Shown here piece after piece: positions 19,050-20,107 of a stretch of DNA of 64,000 bases. Origin of the DNA: Nemania diffusa (taxonomy: Eukaryota; Ascomycota; Sordariomycetes; Xylariales; Xylariaceae); contig JBBPUQ010000008.1 of NCBI GenBank assembly GCA_038501195.1, forward strand, positions 221,001-285,000. The letters run 5' to 3'. A program made the position numbers and the translations under genes. How positions within the stretch are numbered: the stretch's first letter is position 1; each line of letters starts with the position of its first letter. The notes beneath the pieces were generated by a model. That model ran no database searches. It was given only the letters and a program-made list of their open reading frames with translations, and was not told the origin of the DNA.

Positions 19050-20107
19050 ATGAGCAGTCCCCGACGTCGCATCGAGACGGATGTAAGTGCTTTCGGCTGC
19101 CTCGGCTTTAAGTCTCGTGTTCGCTAACCTAATCTTCGGCTATGCAGGTCATGAAGTAAGTTTGTAAATGCGAATGAAAACATGCGCCGCCTACTAATAG
19201 TATGCAGGATGTAGGAGAACCACTCGGATATAGCTATAAGTCGACATGGATGGCTTGAATACTAACGCTGCTGCTTCAGGCTTATGAGCGATTATGAAGT
19301 CACCTTAGTAAACGATAATAGTAAATTACATCCATGCACCCTTCAACTTTAACAAGCGACGCTGACAAACTGTGTTTTTTTTTGTGTTTAGTGTGAGATC
19401 TTTAAATCTACCCCTTCGTCCTCGCGCCCTGACATCCCTCTTTAGGCAAGAGTTTTACGTCAGATTCAAGGGCCCGACAGAGAGTCAGTTGTCGCAACCA
19501 TCTACTGAACGAACACGAACTCGTGCTGACTGCGTATAGCGCCATTCGAAGGTGGCATATGGAAGGTTCACGTGGAGCTCCCGGACCAATACCCCTACAA
19601 GTCGCCTAGCATCGGCTTCGTCAATCGCATCTTTCACCCCAATATTGATGAGCTGTGAGTTCTCTTTCAGGGCAATCATATTTCTCGTTTGGACCGTTAT
19701 TAAGTAAGGCGTTGTGCCAGGTCGGGCTCCGTCTGTCTAGATGTGATCAACCAAACCTGGTCACCTATGTTCGATATGATCAACATCTTTGAGGTATTCC
19801 TCCCACAACTGCTCCGGTATCCAAACCCAGCCGATCCTCTAAATGGGGAGGCCGCTGCTCTTCTGATGAGGGACCAAAAGAGCTACGATATTAAAGTGAA
19901 AGGTAAGAGCAGTTGCTGCTTTTGCACCCCCTTTCCCCAACCCCGACTCTTACGATTTTCCCAGAGTACGTCCAGAAGTACGCCAGTAAGGATGCGGCGG
20001 ATGAAGCGGGCGCCGAAAGCGAAGATGACGACGACATGTCTTCGGTCGCTAGCTTTGGCGACGACGACGGCGACGACGAACCTGCTGGCCAGATGGACGA
20101 TGTATAG
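19050..20107 (+). CDS. ubc8: Ubiquitin-conjugating enzyme E2, Ubc8/UBE2H type
   Basis: E2 that receives ubiquitin on a catalytic Cys; in yeast it works with the GID/CTLH ligase that degrades gluconeogenic enzymes. Nine exons are inferred: 19050-19082, 19148-19155, 19208-19210, 19280-19320, 19392, 19446-19483, 19540-19654, 19721-19902 and 19965-20107. They total 564 nt, or 187 residues. Each intron has a GT donor, an AG acceptor and a recognisable branch in most cases (for example CTACTAAT, ATACTAAC, GCTGAC, CCTGAC). The protein begins MSSPRRRIETDVMKMLMSDY. It has the E2 motif FHPNID and the active site SGSVCLDVINQTWSP with Cys85, the same number as in yeast Ubc8. The tail is acidic (ESEDDDDMSSVASFGDDDGD), as in the family. 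The oddity is the exons of 8, 3 and 1 nt, described separately. Family assignment is very secure; the micro-exons rest on frame and homology. Confidence 0.9.
19148..19155 (+). other. ubc8: 8-nt micro-exon of ubc8
   Basis: GTCATGAA lies between acceptor TATGCAG and donor GTAAGT. It encodes V-M and two bases of K, matching the conserved ETDVMK start of Ubc8 proteins. Confidence 0.8.
19208..19210 (+). other. ubc8: 3-nt micro-exon of ubc8
   Basis: GAT lies between acceptor TATGCAG (branch CTACTAAT) and donor GTAGGA of the next intron (branch ATACTAAC, acceptor TTCAG at 19279). Including it gives VMKMLMSDY; skipping it gives VMKLMSDY, one residue shorter than yeast and human orthologues. Confidence 0.7.
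19392..19392 (+). other. ubc8: Single-nucleotide exon of ubc8
   Basis: A lone T lies between acceptor GTTTAG (intron 19321-19391, branch GCTGAC) and donor GTGAGA (intron 19393-19445, branch CCTGAC, acceptor TTTAG). It supplies the middle base of an ATG shared by three exons (A, T, G) and gives VNDNMQEFYV. Without it the frame is lost. Confidence 0.65.

Follow-up and report, generated by a model that had tools for sequence, protein, structure and literature searches.

An ubc8 gene with predicted exons of eight, three and one nucleotides in Nemania diffusa

We identified a gene for a ubiquitin-conjugating enzyme that, judged by its encoded protein, is ubc8 (Ubc8/UBE2H), in a window of 64,000 nucleotides of the Nemania diffusa genome (the whole stretch of DNA that was analysed). 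The gene very probably has constitutive exons of 8, 3 and 1 nucleotides, and the short introns that flank them would be recognised singly, by intron definition, and spliced out in succession. All eight introns are of the GT-AG type, and the coding sequence of nine exons (564 nt) encodes a protein of 187 amino acids.

Gene structure and encoded protein

The features of the gene are as follows.

19050..19082, + strand: exon 1, 33 nt, encoding MSSPRRRIETD
19083..19147, + strand: intron 1, 65 nt, GTAAGT...CTAACCTAAT...GCAG
19148..19155, + strand: exon 2, micro-exon of 8 nt, GTCATGAA, encoding V, M and the start of K
19156..19207, + strand: intron 2, 52 nt, GTAAGT...CTACTAAT...GCAG
19208..19210, + strand: exon 3, micro-exon of 3 nt, GAT, which completes Lys14 and starts Met15
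19211..19279, + strand: intron 3, 69 nt, GTAGGA...TACTAAC...TCAG
19280..19320, + strand: exon 4, 41 nt, its terminal A the first base of codon 29
19321..19391, + strand: intron 4, 71 nt, GTAAAT...GCTGAC...TTTAG
19392..19392, + strand: exon 5, single-nucleotide exon, T, the middle base of the ATG for Met29
19393..19445, + strand: intron 5, 53 nt, GTGAGA...CCTGAC...TTTAG
19446..19483, + strand: exon 6, 38 nt, its initial G the last base of codon 29
19484..19539, + strand: intron 6, 56 nt
19540..19654, + strand: exon 7, 115 nt
19655..19720, + strand: intron 7, 66 nt
19721..19902, + strand: exon 8, 182 nt, with the catalytic Cys85
19903..19964, + strand: intron 8, 62 nt
19965..20107, + strand: exon 9, 143 nt, acidic tail and stop

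The exons of 8, 3 and 1 nt all lie inside 245 bases, and an in-frame TAA is found a few codons 5' of the ATG. An earlier reading of the letters without database searches (the sequence-only reading) had placed exons at 19148-19155, 19208-19210, 19280-19320 and 19392, and these coordinates are exact. It had also described the tiny exons as flanked by complete introns, which we confirm: the five introns concerned (65, 52, 69, 71 and 53 nt) run from GT to AG, and each has a CTRAY-type branch site 5' of its own AG (CTAAC/CTAAT, CTAAT, CTAAC, CTGAC and CTGAC in introns 1 to 5). At 19392, one coding base lies between AG and GT with a complete intron on either side. The nine-exon chain predicts the junction ATAATATGCAAGAG over codon 29 (compare ATGCAAGAG) and the junction GTCATGAAGATGCTT over the 3-nt exon (compare AAGATGCTT); the junctions AATAGCAAGAG, AATAAGTTT and ATGAAGCTT would contradict it. 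A run of nine T (19375-19383) is located shortly 5' of the acceptor of the one-base exon. No other ubc8 intron has a T run of this length, and it may aid in fixing that acceptor.

The predicted protein contains a UBC fold domain (Pfam UQ_con, E 5.2e-39, residues 12-142). Its sole Cys is at position 85, where the catalytic Cys had been expected. Yeast Ubc8 (PDB 8pmq) ranks first among the structure matches, followed by human UBE2H, with RAD6 far lower (E 2.4e-27); the Ubc8/UBE2H structures matched are PDB 8pmq, 8pjn and 2z5d. The alignment to yeast Ubc8 is ungapped, from residues 1-179 to 1-179 (E 1.3e-71), in agreement with the proposal that inclusion of the micro-exons restores the length of the yeast protein. 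Human UBE2H, in contrast, is one residue shorter immediately before the position of Met29, and thus the length argument leans on yeast and on fungal relatives. Enzymes of this type transfer ubiquitin with the GID/CTLH ligase, a role that is putative for the protein described here.

Among the matches listed in the first search, the best species-named relative with full cover is from Thozetella sp., a Sordariomycetes genus (91% identity), and other listed Sordariomycetes score nearly level with it. Two E2 proteins labelled as plant (P0001, 302 aa, and P0033, 262 aa) are placed higher than expected among the matches listed; P0001 is first in all three lists despite an identity of 62-65%.

Genes for tRNA were not identified in the 64,000-nt window (ARAGORN, bacterial code), nor did any Rfam family reach its gathering score there. 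No tandem repeats were called in 14000-25000 at the default score. Open reading frames (ORFs) with short Ile-Tyr runs occur on both strands at 20613-20898, a sign of a simple AT-rich stretch.

Uniqueness of the exon chain and the matching database protein

We enumerated all GT-AG and GC-AG chains of up to eight introns (each at most 300 nt, with a minimum of 20, 30 or 40 nt), taking the conserved N-terminus up to FKG as the target. Exactly one chain, that listed above, gives this N-terminus at all three minimum lengths, with GT donors or with GT and GC donors. We regard a requirement for the 8-, 3- and 1-nt exons in production of the conserved Ubc8 protein as supported. At a minimum intron length of 40 nt, no chain has residue 29 absent, swapped for another residue or swapped for two, and a single chain lacks Met15, via a skip of the 3-nt exon. 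Omission of this exon costs Met15 alone and keeps the frame, as the sequence-only reading had stated (loss of one residue); omission of the 8-nt or the 1-nt exon breaks the frame. The corresponding claim that the frame breaks without the 1-nt exon holds for skipping, but it does not extend to all other joins. Six single-intron joins of exon 4 to exon 6 are in frame, and one of them (19321-19450, giving VNDN-K-FYVRF) keeps VNDN without the 1-nt exon. There are thus two in-frame rivals, and the choice between readings needs evidence from outside the sequence.

Chance occurrence of the arrangement was assessed with 20,000 dinucleotide-preserving shuffles in which the first 6 and last 3 bases were held and flanking introns of at least 45 nt with branch sites were required. 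AG-T-GT between two such introns was found in 0.1% of shuffles of the 125-nt stretch (any 1-nt exon, 0.25%), and AG-GAT-GT in 0.02% of shuffles of the 124-nt stretch. On both strands of the window, 1 of 53 comparable 125-nt stretches and 1 of 60 comparable 124-nt stretches qualify, and these are ubc8's own, at 19321 and 19156.

A database protein of 187 aa (P0002) is identical to the prediction at 187/187 residues. Its source is one contig, 1,957 nt long, with the label lgn, which we take to stand for assembled public sequencing reads. The longest listed genomic ORF over ubc8 has only 154 aa (from inside exon 8 through intron 8), so the genomic DNA of this gene cannot yield P0002 as one frame. 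A six-frame search of the 55.6-Mb genome with P0002 found no intronless ubc8 copy. The matches were exons 7 to 9 of the window (95-98%) and other E2-like sequences (28-46%, the next best at 31%), and the DNA of 19446-19655 has a single match in the genome. A retrocopy as the source of P0002 was rejected because the genome search returned no intronless copy. Given the eight introns of the gene and the lack of such a copy in the genome search, the contig is most likely cDNA, as judged from the protein record.

Methionine has one codon only. Met29 in P0002 thus requires ATG in the message, for which exon 4 supplies the A and exon 6 the G, so that a single T must be spliced in between. Similarly, Met15 in P0002 requires an AT that only the 3-nt exon supplies. 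The presence of Met29 in this apparent cDNA contig is an observation at the protein level.

Contig entries in the database resemble plain ORF calls (P0114 begins with V, and P0054, P0083 and P0110 extend 5' of the usual start). Three contig ORFs (P0044, P0064 and P0088) begin at Met13, which is encoded here in the 8-nt exon. Such starts could result from a retained intron 1 or a lost upstream start, and could represent a partly spliced message or an N-terminally shortened form.

Relatives, alternative readings and age of the exons

Three protein searches, for each of which the best 120 of more than 5,000 matches were taken, gave 296 distinct proteins, and all counts cover those lists. The third search used scores from the core domain alone (residues 42-186 of P0186), and its ranking is therefore independent of the micro-exon sites. 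We set aside six of the 296 proteins, all intact: P0017, P0111, P0149 and P0157 (mixed or other source) and P0001 and P0033 (plant label). The matches counted are 60 contig ORFs, 189 NCBI Pezizomycotina models and 41 NCBI models from other fungi. Pezizomycotina were separated from other fungi by genus name, with eleven names checked. Site 1 is the region of the 3-nt exon (Met15) and site 2 is codon 29; exceptions to the patterns were judged by eye. Splice sites of relatives were read from protein models, and DNA of ubc8 relatives was not found in the viral-contig and genome-contig sets searched.

Among the 60 contig ORFs listed, M is present in 59/59 that reach codon 29, and 56/56 that reach site 1 are intact there. 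P0284, P0291, P0293 and P0294 start 3' of site 1, and P0294 also starts 3' of site 2. By identity over a 100-residue core, 39 of the 60 are nearest to Pezizomycotina, 4 are nearest to other fungi and 17 are unplaceable, so the contig ORFs need not all carry these introns. The 39 Pezizomycotina-like contig ORFs listed all have M at codon 29, and the 36 of them that reach site 1 are all intact. A full-length contig ORF needs an unbroken frame, and T-skipping messages (which would give a short product outside the search length limits) escape listing, so the 59/59 is limited as proof of the inclusion rate.

Among the NCBI Pezizomycotina models listed, 13 of 189 are intact at site 2, 44 at site 1 and 7 at both sites; some of the 13 are perhaps intact through intron loss. 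When only the core-scored list is considered, site 2 is intact in 3 of 107 models and site 1 in 10 of 107. Models listed from other fungi are intact at site 2 in 40/41 cases by pattern and 41/41 by eye (P0172 has substitutions only), and at site 1 in 39/41 by pattern and 40 by eye (the exception being P0168, with two extra residues inserted). Fisher tests of the NCBI Pezizomycotina at site 2 gave 3e-32 versus other fungi and 4e-43 versus contig ORFs, values that indicate scale only, as the rows are related. Codon 29 is intact in the contig ORFs P0006, P0044, P0085, P0110 and P0174 but not in the NCBI models with 100% identical cores (P0278, P0061, P0173, P0242 and P0264, respectively).

In 171 of the 176 listed models that are not intact at site 2, a stretch is altered or absent; the other 5 are of the right length with R for M (P0024, P0026, P0081, P0119 and P0140). 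The R may reflect a true substitution, another one-base exon, some other parse or a modelling trick. Models of Aspergillus fumigatus disagree at codon 29 (P0231 is intact, whereas P0190 and P0203 are not), and P0231 lacks the residue of the 3-nt exon.

We consider it very unlikely that exon 4 is joined by a single 130-nt intron (19321-19450) to the AG within GCAAG, to give VNDN-K-FYVRF without a 1-nt exon. This join keeps the frame and its product is found in 18 of the 189 NCBI Pezizomycotina models listed. However, P0002 reads M-Q-E rather than K, none of the 60 contig ORFs listed (59 of which reach the spot) has the K despite its being in frame, three residues common to yeast Ubc8 are swapped out, and the acceptor is purine-rich. 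A skip of the 3-nt exon through a 124-nt intron (19156-19279, giving VMK-LMSDY) appears to us just as improbable. The skip is in frame and is represented in 46 of the 189 NCBI models listed, but the residue is present in P0002 and in 56/56 listed contig ORFs that reach the site, yeast Ubc8 has it, and the introns on both sides of the exon have their own branch site.

A further in-frame form, NDNSxQEF, is found in 22 of the 189 NCBI Pezizomycotina models listed. We read it as the result of a donor moved by four bases; for the gene described here, whose donor GTAAAT lacks a GT at +5, such a shift was rejected. None of the 60 contig ORFs listed has the skip, the K or NDNSxQEF, all of which are in frame and thus visible. 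It is therefore most likely that these forms were generated by gene finders unable to place an exon of one or three bases.

Less probable still is removal of 19321-19445 (125 nt) as a whole, either as a plain intron or as a stwintron, with the frame mended otherwise or the locus dead. The stretch begins and ends with valid splice sites, and there are published stwintrons from Pezizomycotina (PMC12403724, PMC8469720, in the portions available). Nevertheless, removal of all 125 nt breaks the frame from codon 29, the enumeration yields no chain in which residue 29 is absent or replaced by one or two residues, and P0002 is a full-length product. Introns 4 and 5 each have intact elements of their own with the coding base between them, which is not the form of a stwintron. 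Least probable of all is an assembly error that dropped or altered bases, with the micro-exons as artefacts of a faulty contig: all eight introns have proper ends and, among the matches listed, the same two sites are disturbed in Pezizomycotina models and not in those of other fungi.

The faulty models retain traces of the splice sites. VNDN is kept in 143 of the 176 non-intact models listed, followed by S (64), M (29), K (19), T (17), R (8), I (3) or N (3). This residue has A-first codons in 143/143 listed cases, matching a phase-1 exon that ends in A, a result that represents compatibility rather than proof given that S and R have other codons too. Among the 29 listed models with M after VNDN, 23 continue with Y and then V (14), A (3), G (3), E (1) or M (2); 21 of these 23 fit GTAYGN, i.e., A-T-GTAYG with readthrough of the donor that follows the T. 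The remaining 6 of the 29 listed do not fit a GTAYG donor or fit a variant only. At site 1, 21 listed models have VMK-MY, with a next residue that fits GNN in 19/21, and 15 have ETD-DV followed by C or R (15/15), as expected for readthrough of GAT-GTATG or GAT-GTACG. In 22/22 listed NDNSxQEF models, the residue at x (K, M, Q, T, E, A, G or R) is one that an NNG codon can encode, as required by the G at the start of exon 6.

Faulty models among the matches listed are from Sordariomycetes, Leotiomycetes, Dothideomycetes, Eurotiomycetes, Lecanoromycetes, Geoglossomycetes and Pezizomycetes. Name-checked examples (one or two per class, none of the R type) are Thozetella, Drepanopeziza, Pseudocercospora, Aspergillus tamarii, Lasallia, Geoglossum, Tuber and Kalaharituber. 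The occurrence of these splice-site traces across seven classes makes it likely that the 1-nt and 3-nt exons are ancestral, and the simplest reading of the models is that the exon layout was already present in the Pezizomycotina ancestor. It is probable that the one-base exon and its 3- and 8-nt companions predate the Pezizomycotina radiation, have been kept near subphylum-wide as constitutive exons, and are misread in most of its public genomes.

Proposed splicing and comparison with known systems

Each short intron is complete, with donor, branch site and acceptor, and may thus be recognised by intron definition, in which case the exon itself need not be defined. Two spliceosomes would hardly fit on AG-T-GT together, so introns 4 and 5 are probably spliced out one at a time; either order would give an identical message. 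The exon junction complex of human and mouse cells prevents the use of donors close to a new junction (PMC6224609, as far as the available text goes). If this effect applies here, the downstream intron 5 is perhaps removed first, although this is speculative. Splice sites should pair with their nearest partners, 53 and 71 nt apart, in preference to the 125-nt joint that skips the T, and a T-skipped message would be out of frame.

Inclusion of the micro-exons is presumably constitutive. Selection on the protein would keep the 1-nt and 3-nt exons, because Met15 and Met29 are in its conserved core and a 1-nt skip destroys the frame. The residue of the 3-nt exon is missing in 0/56 listed contig ORFs that reach site 1, a set in which frame-breaking isoforms are invisible. 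A regulated micro-exon switch is possible; we saw no sign of regulation.

If the proposed structure is correct, splicing by intron definition copes with an exon of one base in a core gene, and has done so across a whole subphylum, and the order and accuracy of removal of two introns that share one base could be tested in model moulds. The N-terminal region of the ubc8 protein would also be wrong in most public genomes of this subphylum (176 of the 189 sampled models, among the matches listed, are not intact at codon 29). This matters for cloning, modelling and aligning Ubc8, and makes the gene a test case for micro-exon-aware gene finding.

The sequence-only reading knew of no earlier account of a one-base exon in this fungal gene, and we found no description of ubc8 micro-exons in the literature, as judged by titles and the beginnings of abstracts, with few subscription papers covered. 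The available part of a review of non-canonical splicing (PMC13149111) contained nothing on one-base exons or fungi. The sequence-only reading had set the one-base exon at the limit of what is known for a spliceosome, with plant APC11 as the precedent. The precedent stands, but the case is less isolated than this implied, as one-base exons of plant VPS55 and of Fusarium CYP621A are also in print. The ubc8 exon is new and apparently ancient, while one-base exons as such are already known. It is distinguished by its likely age, by its company of 8-, 3- and 1-nt exons and by belonging to a core gene. The comparisons below draw on the available portions of the papers cited.

The closest case is the one-nucleotide exon of Fusarium CYP621A (PMC12940212, February 2026), which its authors claim as the first in a fungal gene. 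Like the exon of ubc8, it is one base between AG and GT, in mid-codon and in a conserved motif of a fungal nuclear gene, and it is overlooked by nearly all gene models (PMC12940212). CYP621A has read support from its authors and is a rarely expressed Fusarium P450 with the base G (AGGGT), whereas the base in ubc8 is T (AGTGT). Ubc8 differs further in that the enzyme is common to yeast and human, exons of 3 and 8 nt are nearby, and signs of conservation extend over seven classes.

Arabidopsis APC11 (PMC4674806) resembles ubc8 in that a constitutive, unannotated one-base exon is essential for the frame of a ubiquitin-pathway gene. It differs as a plant gene, with the base A in a 422-nt intronic stretch. 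That exon was tested by mutation in protoplasts, in which a change of the single base changes the mRNA accordingly (PMC4674806); the ubc8 exon is predicted. The 1-nt micro-exons of plant APC11 and VPS55 are conserved over a large clade, as is likely for that of ubc8, and are absent in reference annotations (PMC8831610). They differ in that some plant lineages lose the exon by intron retention and in their support from RNA-seq and RT-PCR (PMC8831610).

Xlr2 of Trichoderma virens (PMC11121469) is likewise a filamentous-fungus gene with a micro-exon, but one that functions in a regulated isoform switch, of which ubc8 gave no sign. The stwintrons of Pezizomycotina (PMC12403724, PMC8469720) share with introns 4 and 5 the packing of two introns and the consecutive removal that is proposed for ubc8. 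In a stwintron, however, one intron splits a splice element of the other and there is no exon between them, whereas the two introns of ubc8 are complete and enclose a coding base.
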